Shown here: positions 8,531 to 32,439 of the stretch, piece by piece | Layout of the letters: each line of letters opens with the position of its first letter | Position numbering within the stretch: the stretch's first letter is position 1 | Made by a program: the position numbers and the translations under genes | The notes under the pieces: generated by a model | Databases searched by the model: none | What the model was told of the DNA's origin: nothing | What the model saw: only the letters and a program-made list of their open reading frames with translations | From: Candidatus Brocadia pituitae | GTDB taxonomy: Bacteria; Planctomycetota; Brocadiia; Brocadiales; Brocadiaceae | DNA: 64,000 bases | Assembly: GCA_017347445.1 (NCBI GenBank) | Contig: AP021856.1 | Coordinates: forward strand, 3,418,613-3,482,612 | Direction of reading: 5' to 3'

Positions 8531-11500
8531 TCATCCTCTCTCCTCTACTATCCCAATCTCATCCGCCGTGAGACCGTAAAGTTGATAGACGAGATGGTCA
8601 ATCCGTCTTTCCAGCGACGATGTGTCGGCATCAGGGTCTTTTTGCTTTGCGGCGAGGATTTGGTCGACAAGGGGAATTATTTTTTGTTGAGAGGCAAACG
8701 AAGGAATTTTAATAGGAACATTCTTTAAAAACATAACCTTGTAAATGAAAAATCCTCCCGCTTTCGGAACGGTAGTCTTTTTGTAGTACCACTCAATCAA
8801 TCTGGAATTTAGAACAGCCAGAAGAAACTTGTAGTCTATGCTTTGCAAGTATTTATAATTTATGATTATTCCACAAACTGTATCTCCATAAAAAACATTT
8901 TCGCCTGCAATCGCAAATCGGTTTCTCTCTGATAACTCCGGTGTTAATATTTTTACCATACTAAAATTATCCAAATCTCTTTGATTCCATAGTTCATACC
9001 ATTTCTTTTTAGATTTGACAAAATATGGTCTACTCTTTATTTTCTCGATATTGTTTTTCAGGTGTTTATGATACTTTGAAGCATTCTTTATTAGCTTTTC
9101 CTCATCAATCGGAACAGTTTTACTGTTTGCAGATTTTATATAGGGGTAAAAAAGCAATTCCTTGCTATCCTGAATATAGTATTTATCTATTTCTTTGCCT
9201 CTAACACAACGGACGAAATATTTCAATTCGAACGAATTTGTAGTTATGATTTCTCTACTAAGCAAATACAAATTATTTAAGCCTGTCACAACCCCTTCCG
9301 ATATTTTTGAGACCTCATGCAGTTTTTTTCCGCCTGACTCGACTTTTACAACCAATGCAGCATCGGTAGAAGCTGAAAATATCCAGGAAGCATCTGTCAG
9401 CTTGCTTTGCTCAATCAGCATACCGCTTTCATTAAAGCTGGTTCTATAAATGAAGGAACAATTATCAGGGCGATTTTTAATAAACGAAAAAATTCCCGTA
9501 TAATTTGTTGCACCTTCAAACACTTGATCATGCTCGAAATCCACCAATTCTTTGATGCAAACGTTTTTTCTAAGAAACTGCCTTAATCGTTCACCGTGGT
9601 CTCTCTTGGTAAACGCAGTGGGGCAGATAAAAACGGAAAAACCTTTAGAGGACATCAAAGCATATGATCTTTCGATAAAAGGAAGATACAAGTCGAACTT
9701 GCCGTCTGCTGATACATAAGTTTGTTGCAATTTTTGTTTGAATTGCTTATTAATGCCATGGAATCCTACATACGGCGGATTTGCAATCACCACATCAAAC
9801 CCGCCTTTATGATGAAACACCTCGGAGAAATAAATCTTAAAATCAAATTCTTTATGACCGTTGGTAATCTGGCTTATCAGTTCATCAATCTGCTTTTTAT
9901 AGTCCTGCTTTTTGGTGGGGTTGGTTTCATTGAAGTAGAGTGGTTTGATTTTTTCCAGTTTAGAGAAAAGATGATTGTTAAACAGGTTTTTTTCCACTCC
10001 CAAAAGTGAGTTTCCGCAGACAATCTTGTAATCCAGATTCGGCAGGGGTTTGATGTTTTTTATGTCGTCCTCATCCACCACAAGCGATAGCCACAGCCGG
10101 AGTTTTGCAATCTCCACGGCGCCGGGGTCAATGTCCACACCGTAAAGGGATTTTTCAATGCAGTGGCGTTTGAAGTCGTAGATTGTTCTCGGTGTGCCTG
10201 ACTTTAACCCTGACAGGGTTTGAAACCCTGTCAGGGTTTTTCTGCCTGCCTGTGCGTCTCCATACGCAGACAGGGAAGCTTGCGTTTCACCAGGCATATG
10301 GTCATTGCGAGCGCCAGCGAAGCAATCCCCGGTTTGAGATTGCTTTGTCGCGTTCGCTCCTCGCAATGACAAAAAGGGCGTTAGCACATTTCTTGCCTTT
10401 ACAATTTCGCCCATCATGCCCACGGGAAATGCGCCTGAGCCAACTGCCGGGTCGCAGACGGTGATGTCCGCCAATTTTTGGTCAATCAGGCTTGCGTTTT
10501 TTCGGATGCCTTCGGGTAGTTTTAATTTGTAATAAGAAGATTTCTGTTCGCCCTCTAAGATTTTTTGTTCTTTGATCAATGCTATTTCTTCATTTTCGCT
10601 AACCTGCTCGCCGAGGTGTATCAGGGTCTCGATGTCTTTAACCCTGACAGGGTTTGGAACCCTGTCAGGGTTGGGAGTGATCAATTCTGTGTGCAGGTAA
10701 TTTATCAGGCTCTGCTGGCACATATAGTGGACAATCTCACGGGGTGTGTAGTAAACGCCATATTGCTTGTTGAATTTGCTTTCTTCTCCTTTTTTCCCGC
10801 TCTTTAACGCCTTTTTATATTCTTCGAAGTTATCAGGGCGGATGGCATTGAACTTTTCATACGCCTTGCCCAGCAGTTCAGGGTCAATGGCAACCTCCTT
10901 TTCCAGAGGTTCGTCTTCTCTGACGGTAAAGTTGTAGCGGTCAAAAATATCCAGAATACCATCACCCTCATCGCCTTCTTTGGTCTTATTTTTATTAGAG
11001 AACAGGCTATCCGGCAGACAAATATCGGTATGCACCCAGTTGTACCCGCCATTGCTGCCAATGGGATCAAAGAGACCACCGTTTAAGAAGGGGATTTTGC
11101 AGTTAAACCGGCTGTAATAGTCATCAGCATGGCTGCGGTCTATACGCAGGGCTTCGTAAAAGAGCGGTTCTAAAATGTCATTGAAGAAATTGTTGTAATT
11201 GCCGTGTTTTTTCCCAAAAAGTTCACGCAAAAAGTGTTTGGAGCCTGTGCCCCATTCGGCATCACGTCCCACACCGAACCAGCCTTTTTTCTGCAAAAAA
11301 TAGAGAAAGACGATTTGGCCTAAGAGTTTTTTGGCAAAGTTTACGGTATCGATCCCCTTCGATTTAAATTCATTCTGCAGGCTGGAAGCCTGCGCTACTA
11401 GCTTGTCCAGTTCTTCTTTTGTGCGGATAAAAAGCTCACGGTACTTGATGAAAAATTCCCTGGTAACGGTTTCAATATCAAATGCCTGTTCCAGTTCGGC

Positions 11501-12048
11501 AAGGGTTGGGCTGTGTTCATCGTTTGCGAGTATGTACACCAGTCTGCTCTGGGCGGTATGGCTGTTTTCGTTTGCGCCGACCAGGAATGACCAGCGCCGC
11601 GCAGGTGTGAACTCTTCTTTTACCTTTGTTTTGCCGGTTTGGGTCTGTTCGAACTTATAGTCCATCTTCACCAGGGAAAAACGCCAGTCCATCGCATCTG
11701 GGGATACGAAGGCTACCAGCGCAGCATCCTTCATTTCACCGCCACGGCTGCCATTCAGATACCATGCGACAAAGTTGCGCTGCATTGTGCGGGCGCGTTC
11801 GAGGGAGGTCTCTTTCTGGAGTTTAATGACAAGAATGTCAATTCTGTTTTCACCATCGTTGAATTTGCCTATTCTTTCAAGTGTGCTGATATATTGTCTG
11901 TAAGCTTCAGGAATGAATTGCCCCTGATAAGTAAAGGAGGCTTCTTCAGTACGGGTTAAGAGGTTTTTGATAAAACCAGTAAACCTGCCCTTATCAAAAG
12001 GTTTTCGAAGGTTTCCTGAATAAGATGTTTTGCCTGTTGTTTATCCAT
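8531..12048 (-). CDS. Eco57I-like N6-adenine DNA methyltransferase with target-recognition domain (frameshift near N-terminus)
   Basis: The long frame runs 11785-8531 (1084 codons), but protein similarity continues upstream. From an ATG at 12048 the sequence reads MDKQQAKHLIQETFENL, and after a one-base shift in the run at 11996-11999 it continues KGRFTGFIKNLLTRTEEASF into the long frame. The run has four T (coding strand) where five restore the frame, so miscalling is possible. SAM motif I is DPAVGSGAFPVG and the catalytic motif is NPPYVGFHG. The C-terminal third is a target-recognition region, ending LVYQLYGLTADEIGIVEERG. About 60 residues after motif I (SLRGANATKQ to LKSG) are encoded by inserted palindromic repeats. 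It likely works with the PLD-helicase upstream. Confidence 0.88.
10206..10238. repeat. Palindromic repeat family P1, copy A (inside methyltransferase gene)
   Basis: A 33-base near-perfect palindrome: AACCCTGACAGGGTTT, a central G, then AAACCCTGTCAGGGTT. In the methyltransferase frame it encodes TLTGFQTLSG. It does not interrupt the frame. Other copies are at 10640, 12059, 12679 (half) and 13233. Confidence 0.95.
10244..10274. repeat. Palindromic repeat, CCTGCCTGTGCGT...ACGCAGACAGG (inside methyltransferase gene)
   Basis: An imperfect hairpin directly next to P1 copy A, encoding part of ASLSAYGDAQAGR in the methyltransferase frame. It resembles the repeat at 5653-5687. The protein region has no counterpart in the flanking conserved MTase sequence. 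Confidence 0.65.
10301..10370. repeat. Palindromic repeat, GTCATTGCGAG...CTCGCAATGAC (inside methyltransferase gene)
   Basis: A 70-base fold-back element with 11-base perfect ends and further internal pairing (AGCAATC / GATTGCT). In frame it encodes SLRGANATKQSQTGDCFAGA. It is the third repeat family stacked at this one site of the gene, beside 10206 and 10244. Confidence 0.85.
10640..10672. repeat. Palindromic repeat family P1, copy B (inside methyltransferase gene)
   Basis: The same 33-base palindrome as copy A with one substitution in the loop. Here it is read in another frame of the minus strand and encodes NPDRVPNPVRV. This shows that the element is tolerated in two reading frames. Confidence 0.95.
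11377..11393. repeat. Short palindrome GCAGGCTGGAAGCCTGC inside methyltransferase gene
   Basis: 7-base perfect arms around GGA, followed by GCTACTAG. It is read as AQASSLQ between helical segments of the MTase N-terminal region. The low-complexity peptide and hairpin make a fourth inserted repeat likely, though there is only one copy in the window. Confidence 0.45.
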
Positions 12049-12058
12049 AGCATTTTTT

Positions 12059-12091
12059 AACCCTGACAGGGTTTGAAACCCTGTCAGGGTT
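12059..12091. repeat. Palindromic repeat family P1, copy C (downstream flank of RAYT gene)
   Basis: A perfect 33-base copy, extended to 37 bases by TTAA...TTAA ends (12057-12093). It lies between the stop of the RAYT transposase gene (12094) and the start of the methyltransferase gene (12048). Confidence 0.95.
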
Positions 12092-12093
12092 AA

Positions 12094-12657
12094 TTATTCC
12101 AATATTATATCATTTGAAATGTCATCGCAACCAGTGTCATGATATGCCACAAAACTATCACGTCCTCCAAACCACGAAAGCACTTCTTTACGCTCTATTT
12201 TCGTTGGGGCGCTCGACAGCACTGCCCTGTAAGATGAGTATGGGTACTTCGCAATGTCGTTCATAATACCATGATGCCTGGGATTATTGTGTATATATAA
12301 AGTCACCTGAATCCGTTGTTTTTCGGAAACAATCACCTTACGGCGAAAGGGGCGCTCGAAGAGACCGCCCGTCCTACTCAGTTGTTTGTTAAGTCCCTGT
12401 GTATAGCTATTAAACATGTCTGAAAAATACAGATACGGCTTTCTCTTTGTATCATCACGAATAGAAACCAATAAGTGAAAGTGGTTCTTCATAAGGCAAT
12501 ACGCATAAACTTTTGCGGTGTGGAAAACATATTTGGCGAGCAAGTCCAGAAAGTATTGGTAGTTTGCCTCAGTGTGGTAAATGGTTTCGCCATTGATACC
12601 CCGATTATAAATATGATACCATTTTCCTGGTAACAATGGTGTGATAGTTGTGCTCAT
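12094..12657 (-). CDS. REP-associated tyrosine transposase (RAYT / IS200-like, Y1-type HUH)
   Basis: 187 residues. The HUH pair is HFH in YCLMKNHFHLLV (about residues 53-64). The RAYT/TnpA signature YIHNNPRHHG lies near residue 126, and GLFERPFRRKVIV precedes it. RAYTs are single-copy relatives of IS200/IS605 transposases thought to mobilise short REP palindromes. The gene sits between the helicase and the methyltransferase in the same direction. It has P1 palindrome C just after its stop and half-copy D 22 bases before its start, so it is the natural candidate for moving the P1 repeats. The C-terminus (GRDSFVAYHDTGCDDISNDI) is short, with no DnaA-like extension. Confidence 0.9.
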   Translation of the reverse strand: MSTTITPLLPGKWYHIYNRGINGETIYHTEANYQYFLDLLAKYVFHTAKVYAYCLMKNHFHLLVSIRDDTKRKPYLYFSDMFNSYTQGLNKQLSRTGGLFERPFRRKVIVSEKQRIQVTLYIHNNPRHHGIMNDIAKYPYSSYRAVLSSAPTKIERKEVLSWFGGRDSFVAYHDTGCDDISNDIILE

Positions 12658-12678
12658 TGTATTCCTCCAAGACGAAGT

Positions 12679-12695
12679 AACCCTGTCAGGGTTTT
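12679..12695. repeat. Palindromic repeat family P1, half copy D (upstream flank of RAYT gene)
   Basis: AACCCTGTCAGGGTTTT, one arm of P1. It supplies the TGA stop codon (12686-12688) and the last two residues of the helicase gene. The natural helicase end may therefore have been replaced when the element arrived. Confidence 0.8.
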
Positions 12696-15600
12696 GCCGT
12701 TAAATATAATGAGAGTATCACTTCCCGTTTGCCAAATACCGCCGGGTTCTGTTCTGCATAGTGTTCTTCAAGCAGTTTTGCCGGGATGTGGGCTTGAAGC
12801 ACCGCCAATACCTTGAGCGGGTTAATGATTTCATTCTTAAGCGCATTGAGCGCTTTTAGTGCATGGGTTGCCGTCTGTTTGGGCAGTCCGCCCTCCTCAA
12901 GCTGAGTAAGGACTTTTTTCAGGTATCGTTCCTGGTCTTCTGTCAGTTTTTGGGTGTTCTTCAGGGTTACCTTTAATATTCTCAGGATATTTGCAGCGCT
13001 GTCACGTCCGCTCCTTTGCCCGTGATGCGGCATTTCTTCTGTTGTCGCTAAGATAAATGCATCTTTGTTTTTACCCAGTAGCTCGTAAAATTGTTCGGGG
13101 AGTTTCTCCTTCGTTTCATAAGGATTACTCTCCAGTAGTTTTGCCGCAGCCAGAAAATCCAATTCTTCAGCCTCACTATTGTATTCTGCTTTAAAAAATT
13201 TCTGCAATTTCCCCCGTCTAAAATAGGTAATTAACCCTGACAGGGTTCTCAACCCTGTCAGGGTTTTGGTGGTGCGCGCCTTTTTGGGGAGGTGTTTTAT
13301 CCTTTCAAAAAGGTTGGGGTCTTTATCGCGAATCCATTTTATAACCTGGAGGTATTTCAATTCACTCTCCCCAGATTCTTCCTCGCCTTCCAGTGTTTGT
13401 TTGGAAATCAGCCGATTAAAGAGTTCATGTGAACCGATGGGTTCACCTTCAGTCAAAAGTTCTGCGTCTCCGCCGAGCAGGGTTAAAAAGGCATTGATTT
13501 TCGCCTCCGCCGCCTCTTTCAGTTTTATCTGATCATTTGATTGTCTGGTCGGGAAAAAATTAAAGGTATGAATCGTGTCAAATGCTGTGTCTACACGGTT
13601 GACACGTCCTACCCGCTGCATCATGCGGGTGGGATTCCAGGGGATATCGTAATTTATCACCGTATTTGAGCGGTGCAGGTTAACGCCTTCAGCCAGCACT
13701 TCCGTAGAGATCAGTATCCGGTAATCTTCTTTAGGATGGCGCGCCCTGGCGTCAAAATTTTCAATGACCTTGTCACGCGTTGTCTCGCCTGAATCACCAG
13801 TAAAACACAGCACCTTATCCCTATCTTGTTCATTTATGTTTTTGAACAGATAGTTTGCGGTTTCCTTTGATTCTGTAAAGATAATCAGATGATTCTCTTT
13901 TAAAACCGGATTTTTGGATAATTCCCCCAAAAATTTTAAAAGCTTCGGGTCGCGGTCAATGTGATGCCATAGTTTTTTAATCTCAAGGAGGATGTCATGA
14001 TCGTGCTGTAAATCATCTCTTAAGCCTTCTCTGAATTCAGTGCTTGCATATCTTTCAGCCTTGCCTTCGTCTATCAATTGCTGGACGGCTTCATCGTCAT
14101 CGCTCTCCAGCAATTCAAATATTTTATTCGTGTGCTTTTTACTCACATAAACATTCCCGTTATCAAGCTCTTTTATAAACATCTCGTATGAGCGCAGAAA
14201 TCTATCAACCGAATTTTTAAATGCAAAGAAACTGCTTTCGAGACGCTTCACCAGCAGGATTTTCATAAACTTACCCATGTTTCTCTGTGACTGCTGTTCA
14301 AGCTGGTCAACTTCACCTTCATAATAAAGCATGGGCATATAACGGGCGTATTTGAATTCCTTTGCTATCAATTCTATGGTTTTGTTGAATACTTCATTTT
14401 CCCTATCATTGAGTTCATAAAAGAGAGGGACTGGTTTTTCAACATTGGGGAATTTGAGGTTTTGGCTCTTTATATCATTGGAAAAGTACCTTTCGATCTC
14501 TGTTCGGGTACGGCGAACCATGAGATATTTAAGGACCTTTTCACGGAGTTCCCGCGCATTTTCTTTTACCGTTTTAATGTATTTGTCAAAATCTTTCTGA
14601 CGGTCCAGTTTTTTCAATTTTTTATCCAGTCCAGTAAAAAAGCCTTCCAGGTCCGGCAGATTTGGAATAGTGCTTTTTCTGGCCTTCTGGAATAGTTTTA
14701 AAAGGCTTAAAATATCTTTTGGCGCATTGTTATAGGGAGTTGCCGTTACAAGAACAATCCTTTTGCCACGGCAGATTTCTGCCAATTTCTCATAAGTGAC
14801 CGTTGTTTCAGTTCTAAAACGGTGCGCCTCATCAATGATAATGTTCTTGTATTTCTCTGTCCCTCTGTCAATAAGGTCGTCCAATTTGCCGAGTGATTCA
14901 AAGTCGGCCGGCACCCTGAAATCAGAAAATACGTTAGTCCAGGAACCAGGATTTGATCTTTCAATCAGTACAGGTGGGGCAATGACAAGGGTTCTGCCGT
15001 CAAGCTGACCTGCCAGCATTGCCGATATGTATGTCTTGCCCAATCCTACAACATCAGAGATAAAGACTCCGCCGTATTCAAGAAGTATTTTTCGTGCGTT
15101 TAAGACTGCCTGCTCCTGATAATCCAGTTTTTTAAACTCCCGGGGAAGGTATTTCAAAAACACTTCATCGGTTTGACTGAGTTCATCCTTGAAATACTCA
15201 TATAAAAATTTTAGATACAATTCATACGGAGTAATAGTATTATTCAGCCATGTTCTTATCTGAATGGTCTCAATGTACTTTTCTCGTACATCAACTGCAT
15301 TCTTCCATAACTCATTGAATTTTTGCAATGCAAACTCATAATCAGCCCTGTTCTTTAACTCGACATTAAACTCAAAGTTATCGATGAGACCTGATTGAGT
15401 GAAATTGCTCGATCCCGTAATGACCCTTCCGACATCCCTGTCACCTGCAACAAAGGTCATAATGTAAAGCTTTGCGTGAATATTTTCGGTTGGGTAAGCC
15501 CTGACTTCTAGTTTTCTGTTTTTCAGCCATTCAATAAACTTAAGGATGCCTCCTTCAACTTCGGGCCTATCCTCCGATTCTTCTACTTCTTCCGTGACAG

Positions 15601-15886
15601 ACTGTTCGAATTGTGCTTTTACCTCGGCGTGGGAATACGGAAGTGTTGATTGGTGATTAGTTTTTGCCTTTTGAATGAGTTCTATTGCCTGTTTGTTTGT
15701 GCTTATTCCAACTAAAATCCTTATTTTTTCGGTATTTTCAAGGGATTTGTAAATGGCATGAAACCCGCTGGTATAGAAATAACCAACGAGCACATCGAAA
15801 AATCGGGTGTCTTGAATAAGTACCCTGAATCTTTCTATAAGATTTCTGTTTTCTTCGTTGGTAATGAAGGTCAGGTCTGAATTCAT
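12686..15886 (-). CDS. PLD-nuclease / SNF2-type SF2 helicase defence protein
   Basis: 1066 residues. The N-terminal phospholipase D-type nuclease region includes IHAKLYIMTFVAGDRDVGRV followed by ITGSSNFTQSGL (about residues 138-172), the HXK...GSSNFT catalytic signature. The SF2 helicase follows: Walker A DVVGLGKTYIS (about 275-285), DEAH in IIIDEAHRF (about 350), VLVTATPYNN, and the C-terminal motif NPTRMMQRVGRVNRVDT. One P1 palindrome (13233-13265) encodes KTLTGLRTLSGL in frame, and half copy D gives the stop. With the methyltransferase and the unknown 567-residue gene it looks like a restriction-type defence operon in which translocase/nuclease and modification are separate polypeptides. 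I see no PglZ, BrxC or DUF1998 gene, so BREX or DISARM is not supported. Confidence 0.92.
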   Translation of the reverse strand: MNSDLTFITNEENRNLIERFRVLIQDTRFFDVLVGYFYTSGFHAIYKSLENTEKIRILVGISTNKQAIELIQKAKTNHQSTLPYSHAEVKAQFEQSVTEEVEESEDRPEVEGGILKFIEWLKNRKLEVRAYPTENIHAKLYIMTFVAGDRDVGRVITGSSNFTQSGLIDNFEFNVELKNRADYEFALQKFNELWKNAVDVREKYIETIQIRTWLNNTITPYELYLKFLYEYFKDELSQTDEVFLKYLPREFKKLDYQEQAVLNARKILLEYGGVFISDVVGLGKTYISAMLAGQLDGRTLVIAPPVLIERSNPGSWTNVFSDFRVPADFESLGKLDDLIDRGTEKYKNIIIDEAHRFRTETTVTYEKLAEICRGKRIVLVTATPYNNAPKDILSLLKLFQKARKSTIPNLPDLEGFFTGLDKKLKKLDRQKDFDKYIKTVKENARELREKVLKYLMVRRTRTEIERYFSNDIKSQNLKFPNVEKPVPLFYELNDRENEVFNKTIELIAKEFKYARYMPMLYYEGEVDQLEQQSQRNMGKFMKILLVKRLESSFFAFKNSVDRFLRSYEMFIKELDNGNVYVSKKHTNKIFELLESDDDEAVQQLIDEGKAERYASTEFREGLRDDLQHDHDILLEIKKLWHHIDRDPKLLKFLGELSKNPVLKENHLIIFTESKETANYLFKNINEQDRDKVLCFTGDSGETTRDKVIENFDARARHPKEDYRILISTEVLAEGVNLHRSNTVINYDIPWNPTRMMQRVGRVNRVDTAFDTIHTFNFFPTRQSNDQIKLKEAAEAKINAFLTLLGGDAELLTEGEPIGSHELFNRLISKQTLEGEEESGESELKYLQVIKWIRDKDPNLFERIKHLPKKARTTKTLTGLRTLSGLITYFRRGKLQKFFKAEYNSEAEELDFLAAAKLLESNPYETKEKLPEQFYELLGKNKDAFILATTEEMPHHGQRSGRDSAANILRILKVTLKNTQKLTEDQERYLKKVLTQLEEGGLPKQTATHALKALNALKNEIINPLKVLAVLQAHIPAKLLEEHYAEQNPAVFGKREVILSLYLTAKP
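13233..13265. repeat. Palindromic repeat family P1, copy E (inside helicase gene)
   Basis: 33 bases with perfect 15-base arms and loop CTC. It is read in the helicase frame as TLTGLRTLSG, between TTK and LITYFRR. It leaves the reading frame open. Confidence 0.95.
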
Positions 15887-25188: not shown

Positions 25189-26535
25189 ATGACAAAACCA
25201 AGGATATTATTAATCGATGACGATAAAACGGCCCTTGACGGATTGGTGAAGATTTTGTCGCATGACGGATATTCTGTCTCCGGAGCCTTGTCCGGTTATG
25301 AGGCATTAAATCTCCTCTCCAGGAAATCCTTTGATATCATTGTGACGGACATGAAGCTTCCCGGCATGGGAGGGTTGTCGCTGATTCACGAAGTACGGAA
25401 AAAGGAAGAGCCGGTGGCAATTGTGGTTATCACTGCCTATAGCTCGGTCAAAACAGCCGTTGAGGCGATAAAATGCGGGGCGGACGATTATCTGACGAAA
25501 CCCGTAAACGTTGAGGAACTGGAACTAGTATTGGAAAAGCTGTGGGAAAGACAGCAGTTGATTGTCCAGAACCGTCTGTTAAAGGAAAAACTAAAGGACA
25601 AGTATAAATCTTCAGAATTGGTAGGAAGTACCCCTCAGATGCATCAGATATTTAACATGATAGAAGACGTTGCCCCCAGCACGGCATCCATTCTGATCTT
25701 AGGGGAAACGGGGACAGGAAAAGAACTCGTGGCTAATGCCATTCACTACCAAAGCGATAGGGCATGCATGCCCTTTATTGCCCTGCATTGTGCCGCATTG
25801 TCGGAAGGCGTGCTGGAAAGCGAACTCTTTGGCCACGAAAAAGGGGCATTCACCGGAGCTGTTCAATCGAGAAAGGGTCGATTTGAATTGGCCGACGGCG
25901 GTACGCTTTTTCTGGACGAAGTGGGCGAGATGAGTTTAAAGGTGCAGGTGAAATTGCTCCGGGTTTTGGAAAAAGGTGAGTTTGAGCGCGTCGGCGGAGA
26001 AAAAACGATAAAGGTGGATGTGCGACTGATCGCTGCAACCAACCGGGACCTGGAAAAGGAAGTTTCCGAGGGGAGGTTCCGCGAAGATTTGTTTTATCGC
26101 TTAAATGTCATAACCGTCCCTTTGCCGCCGTTGCGGGAAAGGCGGGAAGACGTGCCCCTGCTTTCCAATTTTTTCGTCATTAAATATGCAAAAAAGTATA
26201 AGAAGGAGATTGAGGGGTTTGCCCCGGAGTCAATGGAAGCGCTCTGCTCATATCACTGGCCGGGGAATGTAAGGGAACTGGAAAACATCATTGAAAGATC
26301 TGTCGTTCTTTGCAAAAAGAGCATGATCACGATTGACCACCTGCCTAAAAACATGGTCACCAACAAGGAGGATATATCCGCAATCAAAATCCCCCTGGGC
26401 ACTTCGTTAAAAGAAGCCGAAAAGGAAATTATCCAGAAGACACTGCAAATGGCACAGGGGAGCAAAAAAGAAGCCGCAAAAATATTGGGTATCTCAAGCA
26501 GAAAAATTGAATATAAAGTAAAAGAATGGGGTTAG
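25189..26535 (+). CDS. NtrC-family sigma-54-dependent response regulator
   Basis: 448 residues. Receiver domain (1-120): acidic pocket IDDDK, phospho-acceptor Asp in [13 protein letters not shown], Lys in YLTKPVN. AAA+ domain (about 143-370): Walker [11 protein letters not shown], sigma-54 contact loop GAFTGA, Walker [12 protein letters not shown], arginine fingers in [12 protein letters not shown] Fis-type HTH at the C-terminus ends [20 protein letters not shown]. It activates sigma-54 promoters when phosphorylated. No kinase is adjacent; the soluble kinase at 3.7 kb is a candidate. Its receiver is duplicated at 27957. Confidence 0.97.
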
Positions 26536-26956
26536 AAGCGAAATTTTTTCATGCATCTTATTTCTGCATACCCGGTTTCCCGCAAAAATTTCACTCGCCG
26601 CAAATTTTTTATTAAATAGTTTCTTTCAATTCACCACTCAGGCCAAAACCGTATTAGCCGCAACAGCAGTTCAATACTATAGTTACAATATTTATACAAC
26701 CAAATTCTTAAGTTGGCATCTCTTTTGTTACTATGCTAAGCGTTATGAATATCGTAGCCACAGATGTTGCGCATTGCAGTTTTTTTATTGGTTTTTTTGA
26801 AAAGCAGAAAATTGCTGTTTTCATTGGAGGGGGGTGTATCAGGCGGTAAGTGTTCTTTTTGCATTAAGACAGCACCGTGTTGGTAAATTGTGAGTAGAGG
26901 CAAACTTAATAATCTTAATAGTATCTTTTTTAGATTTTCAAGGAGGATAAAAGAGC
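26536..26956. other. Upstream region of the protoglobin gene
   Basis: 421 bases without a gene. It is AT-rich, with a weak sigma-54-like site at 26714 and an AAGGAGGA ribosome-binding site at 26940-26947. I see no convincing hairpin terminator for the NtrC gene; GCAAAAATTTCACTCGCCGC followed by AAATTTTTT at 26581-26610 is the nearest thing. Confidence 0.4.
26714..26729 (+). promoter_or_regulatory. Weak sigma-54 (-24/-12) promoter candidate
   Basis: TGGCATCTCTTTTGTT matches the -24 element TGGCAY and the spacing to a TTG at -12, but the invariant GC of -12 reads GT. It lies 228 bases before the protoglobin start, with an NtrC-family gene directly upstream. Suggestive only. Confidence 0.25.
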
Positions 26957-27610
26957 ATGTCAATTATGTCAAACGCTTACATGAAAATGTTTCCGATGGA
27001 AGCGGAGAAGAAGGTCTCGGCTGGTAAGCGCAATCCCGTTTTGGAGGTCCCTGAATTCAGTAAGGCGTGGAATCTATACCGGGATACGAGTTTAGATATC
27101 GTGAAACGTTACGAATACATGGCCCAGTGCGTTGGCTTTACTGATAAGGACACGGCGGCTATTAAGGAATCAAAGGATATTATAGCAGCAAATCTGAAGG
27201 CAATTCTTGATCACATCTATTATGACAAGCTCATAAACGACCCGTGGCTTTCAAGGTGGTTCAGGGACGACAGCGGCAAAATAGCCAAGGAATATGTTGA
27301 CATTAGAAGAGCAAGACAGCAAAGGTTTCTGCTCAAGATCCTGGAGTGTAAATGGGATGAAGAATTTTGGAATTTCGTACGTTGGGTAGGAGCGGTACAT
27401 GTGCCCATCTTTGGTTTTGAAGACCTGTATATACCGATAAGGCTGAACCTCGGACTTTGGGGTTATATACATCAGTATCTGTTTAATCTTTTTGCACAGG
27501 AATTAAAAAATGATCCGGAAAAACTTCGCAGGATAACGACCGCATGGACAAAGCTTTTCTGGATAATTATCGACATTTATCACATCGACTATTTTGGTAT
27601 CTGGATGTAA
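26957..27610 (+). CDS. Single-domain protoglobin (globin-coupled-sensor family)
   Basis: 217 residues with no output domain. The helical region from LYRDTSLDIVKRYEYMAQ onward ends with FVRWVGAVHVPIFGFEDLYI. The His in VGAVHVP is the expected proximal haem ligand, and the following PIRLNLGLWGYIHQYLF matches the protoglobin H-helix region. Protoglobins bind O2, CO and NO in a distorted haem. The start is the ATG at 26957, preceded by AAGGAGGA at nine bases. Location between NtrC-type regulators and copper oxidase genes suggests gas sensing or detoxification; this is inference. Confidence 0.88.
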   Translation: MSIMSNAYMKMFPMEAEKKVSAGKRNPVLEVPEFSKAWNLYRDTSLDIVKRYEYMAQCVGFTDKDTAAIKESKDIIAANLKAILDHIYYDKLINDPWLSRWFRDDSGKIAKEYVDIRRARQQRFLLKILECKWDEEFWNFVRWVGAVHVPIFGFEDLYIPIRLNLGLWGYIHQYLFNLFAQELKNDPEKLRRITTAWTKLFWIIIDIYHIDYFGIWM

Positions 27611-27714
27611 TATTGTAACATCGTATTGGAAAGAAGTGTTTACGTAAGCGGATGTTTTCCCTCTGTGTTTACTTTGGTTACACAGGGGGGAGGCATCTGG
27701 GGAGAAAGCAAAAA

Positions 27715-27915
27715 ATGAAAAAATCCGTTGTTTGGTTTGAAGAAAGCTGTATTAAGTGCGCTATGTGTGCTGAGGAGGTTCCTGAAGTTATCGTTTTTGA
27801 AGCAACGACCGGGCCACAGCTAAAGGAAGGTGTTGATATTGTCCCTCATAGTGAAAAGATAAAACGGGCTGCCCAGTTTTGTCCGAAAGACAGCATAAAA
27901 CATCATCTGCAATAA
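27715..27915 (+). CDS. Small single-cluster ferredoxin
   Basis: 66 residues. The start ATG at 27715 follows GGGGAG; an upstream in-frame ATG would add an unrelated 21-residue tail. Cysteines are arranged CIKCAMC near residues 11-17, with a fourth in FCPKD near residue 53. This is the CX2CX2C...C pattern of one-cluster ferredoxins (Fer4_13-like). It probably carries a 4Fe-4S cluster and donates electrons to a neighbour. It lies 104 bases after the protoglobin gene and is probably co-transcribed. Confidence 0.88.
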   Translation: MKKSVVWFEESCIKCAMCAEEVPEVIVFEATTGPQLKEGVDIVPHSEKIKRAAQFCPKDSIKHHLQ

Positions 27916-27956
27916 ATGAAATATTTATAAAAGTCTTTTATTATCTATATTATCTT

Positions 27957-28454
27957 ATGACAAAGCCCCGGTTGCTGCTGGTAGATGACGATAAAAACAC
28001 CCTCGATGGATTAATAAAGATATTGAGTCGCGACGGTTTTCCTGTTTCTGGAGTCCTCTCGGTTTATGATGCTTTAAATCTCGTCTCCAGGGAAAATTTT
28101 GATATCGTCTTAACGGATATGAAAATGCCGGGCATGGGTGGATTGTCATTGATCCAGGAAGTAAGAAAAAGGAAACTGCCGGTAGCAATTGTGGTAATTA
28201 CCGCATATAGTTCTGAAAAGACTGCCGCAGAGGCAGCAAAATGTGGGGCAGATTATTATCTTAAAAAACCGGTAAATATCAAAGAGTTGGAATTCGTTAT
28301 TGGAAAGCTATGGGAAAAACAACAGTTAATTACACAGAATCCTTTGGCAAAAGAACAATTGAATGAAAGGCACAATTTATCCGTGTTACTTAGCAGAAAG
28401 GTAATCAGGCAATCTGATAAAGGGGAGGGGCAAGGCATGAACAAATTCGGATAA
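27957..28454 (+). CDS. Truncated response regulator, receiver-only paralogue of the NtrC gene at 25189
   Basis: 165 residues from the ATG at 27957; the frame is open 26 codons further upstream, without a start signal. The receiver nearly duplicates that of 25189: MTKPRLLLVDDDKNTLDGL versus [29 protein letters not shown], and Lys in YYLKKPVN. The linker matches through LWEKQQLITQN, then the sequence drifts (NLSVLLSRKVIRQSDKGEGQ) and stops where the AAA+ domain should begin. Phosphorylation residues are kept, so it could compete for a kinase or act as a phosphate sink. It arose by local duplication and truncation. Confidence 0.9.
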   Translation: MTKPRLLLVDDDKNTLDGLIKILSRDGFPVSGVLSVYDALNLVSRENFDIVLTDMKMPGMGGLSLIQEVRKRKLPVAIVVITAYSSEKTAAEAAKCGADYYLKKPVNIKELEFVIGKLWEKQQLITQNPLAKEQLNERHNLSVLLSRKVIRQSDKGEGQGMNKFG

Positions 28455-28523: not shown

Positions 28524-29813
28524 ATGATGAAAAGGTTAAAAAAATTACTGGGATGTACTATTGTCGCTGCATTGACGGGGATTGCGACAACTCTCTGCGT
28601 CCCGGCTGTTTTTGCGGAAGAGGCAAAAAAAGCAGAAGACTGGAATCTGTCTCACGAGGATCTTGAAGAGCAGGCGTTAATTGATGTTACCAATGGCGAT
28701 GTGCTCGGTGTACGCGCGAAAGACGGCGCATGGGAGTTTCATCTTTACACGACCGATGGATATATAGAGATGACCAACGGCGAATTGGTCTGGGTCTTTG
28801 GTTATACCCATGCCAAGGACAGCTTTGAAAATGTGGGGGAAATAAAAACAAAGGAAGAAGCTGAACGATTGCTTGAGCCCGTTAAGGTGCCTTCAGACCC
28901 GCTTCACCTCTTTGTTGGAGAAAAGGCGCGCATCGTCCTCCATAATACGGGGATGCATCATGCCGCTGAACATTCGGGAATTAATCACGTGGCGCACACG
29001 ATTCATTTCCATGGTCTGGATTTAGCGCCCGCGGTTGATGGCGTACCTTCTTTGCCCGTAGACCCCGTATTGGAACATAAATCTTTTACTTACGAAATAA
29101 CTCCGCAACATGAAGGTTCGTTCATGGGACATTGCCATGTGGACAGCTTCAATCATATTTTGGCAGGCATGTACTTTCCCATCATTATTCATCAGGACAG
29201 GACGAAGACTGCTTATGGGTATAAATATGATCGGGACTATACCTTGTTTGTCAGTGAATTATCCTCCACAGCAAATGAGCAATTGCAAGAATCAGGGGTT
29301 GTTCACGGGATACAAGACTGGAAGGCAGATTATTTCCTGATTAATGGAAGAACGTATACCGACAACCTCTTTCATCCACGTTCCGTGGTAAATGATCCAC
29401 GTTCGAGGATTGTGGCATATGAGGATGAAACGGTTTTGATACGTTTTATGGCAATTGGCGCCGACCATGTCTTTGCATTCCATCCGCATGGTTATCACAT
29501 GGAAGTAATCGCATTGGATGGAAGAAAATTAAAGAGCACCTATGAAAAAGATACCCTGTGCATTGCCAGTGGTGAAAGGACTGACGTCCTGGTTAGGATT
29601 CCTCGTTTTGCCAGCCAAAGAAAGTGCTTGTCGTGCAACCTTGGTGCAGGGGTAACGATCATGCACGATCATAATCTCCGTGGCATGGTCTCAACCGGCA
29701 AATATCCGATGGGCGCTTTGACGATCTTCGATGTAAGAGCGAAGGTGAAGGCAGCAAAACCGGATGAACCTCTTGTAAAAGAGGGTAAACCATATAATCC
29801 ATTAGAGCATTAA
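28524..29813 (+). CDS. Secreted multicopper oxidase (two cupredoxin domains)
   Basis: 429 residues with a signal peptide (1-31, cleavage after VFA). Copper motifs are HTIHFHGLD (His158/161/163), then HCHVDSFNHILAGM (His203, Cys204, His205, His211, Met216), the classic type 1/type 3 block. The second domain has FHPHGYHMEVIALDG (His320/322/325) and MHDHNLRGM (His381/383, Met388). The size fits two-domain laccases or NirK-like oxidases acting as trimers in the periplasm; the substrate is not clear. It has GGGAAAG upstream of tandem ATG codons and a strong terminator after it. Confidence 0.92.
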   Translation: MMKRLKKLLGCTIVAALTGIATTLCVPAVFAEEAKKAEDWNLSHEDLEEQALIDVTNGDVLGVRAKDGAWEFHLYTTDGYIEMTNGELVWVFGYTHAKDSFENVGEIKTKEEAERLLEPVKVPSDPLHLFVGEKARIVLHNTGMHHAAEHSGINHVAHTIHFHGLDLAPAVDGVPSLPVDPVLEHKSFTYEITPQHEGSFMGHCHVDSFNHILAGMYFPIIIHQDRTKTAYGYKYDRDYTLFVSELSSTANEQLQESGVVHGIQDWKADYFLINGRTYTDNLFHPRSVVNDPRSRIVAYEDETVLIRFMAIGADHVFAFHPHGYHMEVIALDGRKLKSTYEKDTLCIASGERTDVLVRIPRFASQRKCLSCNLGAGVTIMHDHNLRGMVSTGKYPMGALTIFDVRAKVKAAKPDEPLVKEGKPYNPLEH

Positions 29814-29838: not shown

Positions 29839-29879
29839 ACCTCCCGTAGGGATCAACCTCTACGGGAGGTATTTTTATT
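29839..29879 (+). terminator. Rho-independent terminator after the multicopper oxidase
   Basis: A perfect 10-base stem, CCTCCCGTAG / CTACGGGAGG, around a 10-base loop, followed by ATTTTTATT. Confidence 0.93.
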
Positions 29880-30368
29880 CCTCTATTCAGCCAATAATTT
29901 CAAACCAGAGTTGACAAAACACTCCCAATAGTTCATATATACCCATAAGAAGCAAGAGATTAACAAAGAGGCGGTAATCTATGCAAAAAATAAAACCAAA
30001 GGTTCGAAAAAGACGCGTGAAATTTTCTATTTATATTAAATAATTTTTCTCTATAGTGTATGCGACAAAGACTTAATCGCATTTTAATAAAGAAGAACAA
30101 AGAAAAATATCCGTACTTAATTAATTGGAGTTAACGCATGAATCCATACCTGTTCACGCAGGACTTACCTGTATTCTATCATGGCAGATACCCCAGACTT
30201 CCCACACCTATTGGATGGCAAATCCATGTCTAAGGCATGGAGCGAAAACATGGGGTTTGTTCTTTTTTTTCAACGAATCTGGAGGTGGTGACTACTGCGA
30301 TTGACAGTATATTCTTACCTTATTTTATTTCATTAACTATTACATTAACGAATCGAGAGGAAATTCAT
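29880..30368. other. Leader region of the cupredoxin-propeller gene
   Basis: 489 bases without a convincing gene. A promoter could lie in the AT-rich part around 29911-29990 (TTGACA at 29914-29919). A terminator-like hairpin at 30219-30270 lies 99 bases before the start codon. I do not recognise a riboswitch. Confidence 0.35.
30219..30270 (+). promoter_or_regulatory. Possible attenuator or terminator hairpin
   Basis: CAAATCCATG pairs imperfectly with CATGGGGTTTG across a loop and is followed by TTCTTTTTTTT. The hairpin plus U-run inside a long leader suggests transcription attenuation or the end of a small RNA. The stem contains a mismatch or bulge. Confidence 0.4.
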
Positions 30369-32216
30369 ATGAAAAAAATATCGAAATTATTTTTAATAGC
30401 TTTTTTATTCTGTTGTTTGACGAGAATGGTGCATGCAACATCGTCAGATACCATGTCACTTACGGACGAACCTGGCAACTGGTTTAAAAGTAACAACACA
30501 GGCACTTCTCTATCGGTGATCAACGCTGGTCAGGAGGTTAACTTCAAGATCAGTAACTGTTGCACCAATACGCGACATACAGTCACACTCCTGATCAAGC
30601 CTGAGGGGTCGAACCTAACCTTGGATCAGGACCATTCGATAACGGGAACGCTTTCCGCCACTTTTGATGTACCGGGTGTTTATGTGTTTGTTTGCAAAGT
30701 CCATCCCTATATGACTGGTGTGGTAGCCGTGAAAGATGCTGATGGAAATATCCCGGATGTTACGACTGGTTCGTTACCCTTTATTAGTTATTTAGGGATA
30801 ACTTCACTTCCAGCCGATACCGTTCTCGCTGTCCTCCGCACTGTCGCTTCTACTGACGCAGAAAAGGCAGCCAAATGGGATATTCGCACATCAGCCGATC
30901 AGGTAATTCCAAAGGTTCCTGGTGTAGGCGAAATCTGGATTGATACTCAATTTGAACACGTGAATAAACAAACCGACAAAAGAGGTACGCTAAAGCCTGG
31001 CACTATCACCATAGTAGATGCAGAAACTTTCACCGTAGAGCGAGAGATTAACGGTCTTGGTGCGAAAGGGATGTGGAATAATCCTCATAATATGTGGGCA
31101 GATTTTACTCTGGATACGATATACAATACGAACTGGTTTGGAGAGTGGATTAATAAGATTGACCGGCAATCGGGCAGGATTATACAGAGTATTACCGTAG
31201 GTGAGGCACCTACCCATATCGTTACCATTCCCACCCTTGGTTCATCTGAAAGGGGCGTATTAACCATACCTCTGAGTGCTGAAAATAATTTTGTTAAGGT
31301 AGAGGATGGATCTGATGGTTTAAAGGTTATTGACTCAAAACCTACAGGTGATGGACGTAATCATCCTCACGGCCACTGGCTGAATTGTGGCCGGGGAGAC
31401 CGGATGGTTGTCCCTAATGTATTCAAAGGTGTAGGGGTCGCGGGATCCGTCAGTATTTTAGATTCCCTTACCGGTGATGTTCTCAAGGAATTTGACCATG
31501 ATTCCAATGATCCTCTGAGAAGTGTGTTGCTGATGCCGATTGCTGCCGGAGAATGTCATGTTAACGGAGTAAGCAAGGCGTATGTTGCTAATGCGGTCTC
31601 TGGTTATATAACGGTTATCGACGTTGATGGGATGCAAATCAGGAAGAATATTCCTGTAACGGTAACTCCAGACGGACAGACAGGAAAAGATCTTCTCAAC
31701 ACCTTACAGGTGCCGATTCAAACGCCGGTAAGTCCTGATGGAAAGTTTGTGGCTGCGGCCATCTTATCGCTCACTGCCGTGCCGAATGCGAAGACCAATT
31801 CAACAGACTACGTTGTAATCATTGATGCCCTTACCGATGAAGTAGTGGCATATGTACCAACGCCGGGAGGAACGCATGGAATAAATTGGGGCGCCAAGTT
31901 GGGGGGAGGATATTATGCCTATGTAAGCAGCCAATTTGCCAATGTTCTTGCGGTAATAGATATCGATCCAAATGGAGACGGGAAGGGGTCTGATGCGGCA
32001 GTGGTAGGCACAATTCTCCTGGCCAACGGAAGTAACGGTGCAGGGGTGACGGATGGAACAGGCGGGCAAGGGATTAAGCCGCTTCCCATGGTACATGATG
32101 GTTGGATCCAACCGACCGTAGAGTTAGCTGGCACTGGTATCCTCTCTGCTGAAGTAGAGGACTGGATTATTCAACTTACACCAGAACAGAAAGATCCTGA
32201 AGGTCACGAACAGTAA
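30369..32216 (+). CDS. Secreted cupredoxin/beta-propeller fusion protein
   Basis: 615 residues. The start is the ATG at 30369 behind GAGAGGA; upstream codons are not credible. A signal peptide (1-23) is followed by a cupredoxin domain (about 25-122) with a complete type 1 copper set: His70 in NTRHTV, then Cys109, His112 and Met115 in VFVCKVHPYMTG (amicyanin-like CX2HX2M). Residues 185-600 form a beta-propeller of YVTN/surface-repeat type (TITIVDAETF, VSILDSLTG, ITVIDVDGM, VVIIDALTD). Histidines recur in blade-entry loops: His240, 283, 332/334/336, 397, 503, 576. Nitrous oxide reductase has the same two folds in the opposite order, with a histidine-ring copper site. The gene has its own terminator. 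Function unknown; periplasmic electron transfer or copper enzyme is inference. Confidence 0.88.
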   Translation: MKKISKLFLIAFLFCCLTRMVHATSSDTMSLTDEPGNWFKSNNTGTSLSVINAGQEVNFKISNCCTNTRHTVTLLIKPEGSNLTLDQDHSITGTLSATFDVPGVYVFVCKVHPYMTGVVAVKDADGNIPDVTTGSLPFISYLGITSLPADTVLAVLRTVASTDAEKAAKWDIRTSADQVIPKVPGVGEIWIDTQFEHVNKQTDKRGTLKPGTITIVDAETFTVEREINGLGAKGMWNNPHNMWADFTLDTIYNTNWFGEWINKIDRQSGRIIQSITVGEAPTHIVTIPTLGSSERGVLTIPLSAENNFVKVEDGSDGLKVIDSKPTGDGRNHPHGHWLNCGRGDRMVVPNVFKGVGVAGSVSILDSLTGDVLKEFDHDSNDPLRSVLLMPIAAGECHVNGVSKAYVANAVSGYITVIDVDGMQIRKNIPVTVTPDGQTGKDLLNTLQVPIQTPVSPDGKFVAAAILSLTAVPNAKTNSTDYVVIIDALTDEVVAYVPTPGGTHGINWGAKLGGGYYAYVSSQFANVLAVIDIDPNGDGKGSDAAVVGTILLANGSNGAGVTDGTGGQGIKPLPMVHDGWIQPTVELAGTGILSAEVEDWIIQLTPEQKDPEGHEQ

Positions 32217-32238
32217 ATACCAGCACAATTGAGAACCC

Positions 32239-32278
32239 CTGGGCGGACAGCTTTTTGCATGTCCGCCCAGATTTTTAT
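32239..32278 (+). terminator. Rho-independent terminator after the cupredoxin-propeller gene
   Basis: An 11-base perfect stem, CTGGGCGGACA / TGTCCGCCCAG, followed by ATTTTTATGA. Confidence 0.93.
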
Positions 32279-32439
32279 GAATATTATGGAGTAGTACCGT
32301 TAGAAAAAGTATTGAAAAAGAGTCTAAAAATTATAATAGCCTTTTCAGGCAGTCACGCTACTTTCTACCATATTTCCACTTCTCCTGTGCTTACAAAAAA
32401 CAACCTTTCAGAACGGTAAACGTATCAAGGCGAAGTGCT

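Follow-up and report, generated by a model that had tools for sequence, protein, structure and literature searches.

A secreted cupredoxin–propeller protein with an invariant histidine/glutamine ring in Candidatus Brocadia pituitae, a possible two-site copper oxidoreductase

Thiocyanate dehydrogenase (TcDH) is a periplasmic seven-bladed propeller in which copper in the central channel is bound largely by histidines (PMC9456337, PMC6504805). Clade III lactonase-type nitrous oxide reductases (L-NosZ) have a seven-bladed propeller too, with a near-complete histidine ring for their CuZ cluster, and join it to a cupredoxin domain. Here we describe a gene that invites comparison with both, the cupredoxin–propeller gene at positions 30369–32216 of a 64,000-nucleotide window of the Candidatus Brocadia pituitae genome (contig AP021856.1, 3,418,613–3,482,612), labelled T together with its protein; coordinates below that carry no locus label are those of this window, and T with its parts, like the neighbouring oxidase and terminator, lies on its forward strand. 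T carries a type 1 copper set in its cupredoxin domain and a ring of invariant histidines and glutamines in its propeller. We favour, at about even odds (~0.5), the reading that it is a periplasmic copper oxidoreductase combining the type 1 site with a second site at this ring and acting on a small substrate. No description of the T family was found in the open-access literature.

T encodes a secreted protein of 615 residues. Its open reading frame has a second possible start at an upstream ATG (30237), which is unlikely because a Shine-Dalgarno-like sequence, GAGAGGAA (30355–30362), stands before the ATG at 30369. A Sec-type signal peptide (residues 1–23; 30369–30437) can be read directly from the hydrophobic N-terminus, agrees with low predicted local distance difference test (pLDDT) values over residues 1–22 and includes H22; unlike TcDH, which carries a Tat (twin-arginine) signal (PMC6504805), the N-terminus of T (MKKISKLFLIAFLFCCLTRMVHA) lacks a twin arginine. 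The cupredoxin domain follows at ~residues 25–125 (30441–30743), with pseudoazurin/amicyanin-like profile matches and AlphaFold strands in agreement, and in a PDB sequence search residues 90–132 matched pseudoazurin. A seven-bladed YVTN-type propeller occupies ~residues 181–575 (30909–32093) and opens with strands B–D of the last blade, a velcro closure. The AlphaFold model, built on 72 sequences, has a pLDDT of 92.7 and a predicted template modelling score of 0.91, and its seven four-stranded blades place the propeller with the YVTN/YncE-like group, the fold search aligning it with 1l0q at Z 33.0 and a root-mean-square deviation of 2.0 over 297 residues. A PDB profile search returned YVTN propellers, among them 1l0q and hydrazine synthase beta; a Pfam scan gave no match at E 0.01, and the methylamine dehydrogenase heavy chain family (PF06433) scored 14.9 bits, below its cut-off of 21. 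The reading frame with its start, the signal peptide and the propeller had all been proposed in an earlier note made from the sequence alone, and each is borne out here.

With each species represented by one genome, a scan seeded with two peptide patterns returned 228 relatives of T, the best 80 of which were kept. Conservation figures for the type 1 set and the ring come from an alignment of 72 relatives, drawn from Planctomycetota, Verrucomicrobiota, Armatimonadota, Chloroflexota, Pseudomonadota, Nitrospirota and archaea. The cupredoxin fold of T holds the His, Cys, His and Met of a type 1 site, namely His70 (30576–30578) and, in the loop CKVHPYM (30693–30713), Cys109, His112 and Met115. The first three are present in 72/72 relatives and Met115 in 71/72, so the type 1 set that the earlier note had read from the sequence is complete and near-invariant. 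The three loop residues fall inside one of the seeding patterns, which makes their conservation partly circular, though not totally so: some relatives read CQ..HPFM at this loop. T shares the type 1 copper loop C-x-x-H-P-x-M with amicyanin and pseudoazurin but scores far below the cut-offs of the NCBIfam models for both (amicyanin, 17.5 bits versus 110.2; pseudoazurin, 12.1 versus 109.9), and its cupredoxin, unlike theirs, is fused to a propeller.

Comparison of the blades identified one equivalent residue in each, where the innermost strand begins, as P/G-x-residue sites. In blade order these are His240 (31086–31088), His283 (31215–31217), His334 (in 31368–31376, which also covers His336), Ala392 (31542–31544), Gln451 (31719–31721), His503 (31875–31877) and Gln567 (32067–32069), and every one is identical in 72/72 relatives; His336 is kept in 67/72 (93%). 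All of these ring residues lie outside both seeding patterns. The propeller has four invariant histidines among its 395 positions and all four fall on the seven ring sites, a placement beyond chance on a naive hypergeometric estimate (3.5e-8). From strand register and position, the ring side chains would be expected to meet at the propeller axis. The earlier note had named eight propeller histidines as candidate ligands of a second metal site and had held that lack of conservation among homologues would speak against it. Five of the eight (H240, H283, H334, H336 and H503) are conserved; the remaining three are not (H332 in 30/72, H397 in 17/72 and H576 in 17/72 relatives), and for these the proposal falls.

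The ring also bears on whether T is instead an electron carrier or docking protein, its propeller a scaffold and its ring structural or partner-binding with no second metal, which we consider rather unlikely. YVTN propellers often serve as scaffolds without catalytic function, hydrazine synthase beta and the S-layer protein 1l0q are among the best matches of T by fold and by profile, and in ammonia oxidisers T is physically joined to an oxidase, as would suit such a role. However, invariant His or Gln in six blades, across clades that are ~35–40% identical, exceeds what a scaffold needs, and the non-catalytic hydrazine synthase propeller of the same genome has, by eye, a single His at such positions.

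L-NosZ resembles T in its seven-bladed propeller plus cupredoxin, its velcro closure and the His-bearing motifs (PHGH, PHN, GPLH) at which the innermost strands start. The true L-NosZ sequences used for comparison, from Nitrospirota, read DLHEP, GIHH, NPHGH, GPLHT, IGHI and EPHNA at the strand starts and have a C-terminal CuA domain; hhalign paired their propellers with T at 92.6% (E 4.5e-7) with the register one blade off, and therefore no ligand-by-ligand homology is claimed. The NCBIfam L-NosZ model (NF052460) gave T 23.7 bits (E 1.5e-5) against a cut-off of 700, and since it also matches in 7/14 unrelated control genomes, its match to T is generic propeller similarity. The reversed domain order claimed in the earlier note is real: the cupredoxin of L-NosZ is C-terminal and holds CuA (YCQxFCGPLH), whereas that of T is N-terminal and type 1, with C109 as its single loop cysteine. 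All 72 relatives share the ring H,H,H,A,Q,H,Q, against the near-complete His ring of L-NosZ. NosL (PF05573) is absent from the window genome, in which no nos accessory gene was found. Membership of T in the nitrous oxide reductases, as a divergent form, is thus extremely improbable, even with the same two folds, the weak model match and the hhalign pairing in its favour: the score, the missing CuA cysteine pair, the four ring histidines and the absence of NosL led us to reject membership of L-NosZ, and T at most works like an enzyme of that type. By analogy, the comparison supports the invariant His/Gln ring as the same kind of position as that of the CuZ ligands in NosZ-type propellers. The profile match to TcDH, which unlike T has no cupredoxin domain, was marginal, with 6sji at E 0.23 and 39 positions of the profile covered. 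Neither NosZ nor TcDH is among the fold-search matches listed for T, which excludes neither.

The genes beside T in relatives point to copper redox partners. At 38 loci, 14 of methanotroph type and 24 from ammonia oxidisers, a small-laccase-type multicopper oxidase lies immediately upstream of T on the same strand with a gap of -23 to 89 bp, and the methanotroph oxidase matches the small laccase 3t9w at E 1.1e-31. We tested these oxidases for four ligand motifs (H.HG.H, YHDH, H.FHLH.H and HCH...HM..GM). All four are intact in the upstream oxidase at 14/14 methanotroph-type loci, and at 24/24 ammonia-oxidiser loci (Nitrosomonas/Nitrosospira; L062 6041–9833 and 23 others, L056–L088) the separate oxidase retains the two domain-1 motifs only. 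T itself is ~910–980 residues long at 23 of these 24 loci, with a multicopper-oxidase region of its own at the N-terminus (Pfam places multicopper-oxidase domains in the first 280 residues); in these 23 the fused region has lost the domain-1 motifs and kept domain 2, with the last motif departing from the exact pattern in four. The fused copies also have an additional invariant His just ahead of the blade-4 ring site. In small laccases the trinuclear centre forms where domain 1 of a subunit meets domain 2 of its neighbour. The ammonia-oxidiser ligand set, unlike theirs, is divided between two proteins, one fused to T, and given the inter-subunit centre of small laccases we predict from these motifs that the separate and T-fused halves assemble one trinuclear copper centre. 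The AlphaFold model of a fused 921-residue Nitrosomonas protein had low confidence (pLDDT 54.9) and no conclusion was drawn from it.

Other relatives have different companions. In Jettenia, another anammox genus, a NirK gene lies 39 bp upstream of T and looks intact by eye, with all expected ligand motifs; no orthologue of it occurs in the window genome. In a Planctomycetota relative (L006 1483–3261, reverse strand) a single chain comprises cytochrome c, then cupredoxin, then propeller, and a cytochrome c ahead of the cupredoxin points to redox work. The Methylocystis oxidase–T pair (L009/L041) sits between a sigma factor gene and a GTP cyclohydrolase gene (folE), and in one lineage it is also near NnrS and, by eye, a putative quinol nitric oxide (NO) reductase gene.

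T matched in 8/392 genomes of a phylum sample, and the tree of relatives has two strongly supported clades. The near clade (~59–79% identity, plus one divergent archaeal row) includes the window protein, Jettenia, a betaproteobacterial metagenome-assembled genome (MAG), Planctomycetota, Chthoniobacterales, Armatimonadota, Chloroflexota and Methylomirabilis, and the far clade (~33–41% identity) chiefly methanotrophs and ammonia oxidisers, together with comammox-type Nitrospira and Nitrososphaera. In two MAGs (L033 988–2926 and L036 2587–4936) T is in two frames, from a frameshift or an assembly error. Copper monooxygenase genes were found in 20/32 far-clade and 0/18 near-clade genomes tested, so a family-wide tie of T to these enzymes is not general and was rejected. 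This distribution, 20/50 hosts and all in the far clade, together with the adjoining multicopper oxidase or NirK, could suggest that T handles copper, its ring capturing or storing the metal and delivering it to the adjoining multicopper oxidase or aiding the assembly of that enzyme. We regard this as improbable: an invariant type 1 site speaks of electron transfer and is not typical of chaperones, and most near-clade members stand alone.

Of 120 Nitrosomonadaceae genomes sampled, 81 have T, often as multiple copies. The lack of T in 18/67 genomes with ammonia monooxygenase rules out a universal role in ammonia oxidation, and T is common but dispensable in this family. It is accordingly very improbable that T and the split oxidase form the missing enzyme that takes nitric oxide to nitrite in ammonia oxidisers; the frequency of T there, often at two or more copies, and its tie to a copper oxidase fit that idea, but the genomes without T mean it cannot be the universal enzyme, and many relatives of T belong to non-nitrifiers.

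The favoured reading of T, in which a copper oxidoreductase of the periplasm pairs its type 1 site with one at the ring, draws on the conservation of both over 72 sequences in a high-confidence fold, on the oxidase operon and fusion with complementary motif loss, the cytochrome c fusion and the Jettenia NirK, and on the ring analogy with NosZ-type propellers. T would be exported to the periplasm, where the N-terminal type 1 copper would serve electron transfer. The second site would lie where the central channel opens, formed by His240, His283, His334/336 and His503 with Gln451 and Gln567, and would most likely hold one or two copper ions and convert a small substrate, with electrons passing between the ring site and a partner protein by way of the type 1 copper, in a direction that we leave as a matter of inference. 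For methanotrophs and ammonia oxidisers this partner would be the small-laccase-type oxidase from the same operon, in Nitrosomonas/Nitrosospira partly within the same polypeptide as T, and in Jettenia it would probably be the copper nitrite reductase. Several observations weigh against this reading. The ring includes two glutamines and one alanine among its seven residues, and with four histidines only it argues against a CuZ-like cluster; other YVTN propellers bind non-metal ligands, for example cobalamin in the BtuG-type matches; and in most members of the near clade neither a multicopper nor a nitrite-reductase gene lies close to T, so that such a partner is not general.

The window genome is a single 4.08 Mb contig and encodes hydrazine synthase beta, which marks it as that of an anammox bacterium. 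Upstream of T lies a two-domain multicopper oxidase (28524–29813; nearest solved structures 2zwn and 3g5w). It is kept in 32/33 genomes of the anammox family, and the window genome (G000) also has a paralogue of it, 56% identical, at G000:C1:3118918; the oxidase is itself a conserved copper protein of anammox bacteria. An intrinsic terminator of 13 pairs (29839–29870) separates it from T. This oxidase was rejected as a partner of T: it is near-universal in the family, is followed by the terminator and is kept in congeners without T. Blastn of the flanks showed that the ~2.6 kb interval with T (29847–32439) is missing in two congeners, whose flanks lie 206 bp (G378) and 181 bp (G122) apart, and this empty site indicates a patchy gain of T in the window genome, by horizontal acquisition, or its loss elsewhere. 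If gained, T would have arrived without a dedicated partner of the kinds described above, and a cytochrome c in the periplasm or a different cupredoxin protein would be a candidate for that role. Upstream of the multicopper oxidase (25189–28454) are a sigma-54 response regulator, a protoglobin (a gas-sensor-type globin) and a response regulator. Farther away, on the reverse strand (8531–15886), a Type IIG restriction-methyltransferase (PADLOC PDLC03596, 1041 bits) stands beside an SNF2-type helicase in a likely defence island.

A more ambitious view, which we hold only tentatively, is that T represents a hitherto undescribed kind of copper enzyme built on a propeller, its His4-5/Gln2 ring site wired to type 1 copper, and that it works as a two-component oxidase together with a multicopper oxidase, the active centre of which is divided in ammonia oxidisers between two proteins that have to assemble. 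The enzymology of ammonia oxidisers still has open steps, such as the one that oxidises nitric oxide to nitrite (PMC13170337). Their split oxidase leads to the prediction of two proteins that each contribute half of a trinuclear copper centre. If the ring does bind copper, T would be a third kind of copper propeller, after nitrous oxide reductase and thiocyanate dehydrogenase, and one that is widespread in the organisms behind the nitrogen and methane cycles.
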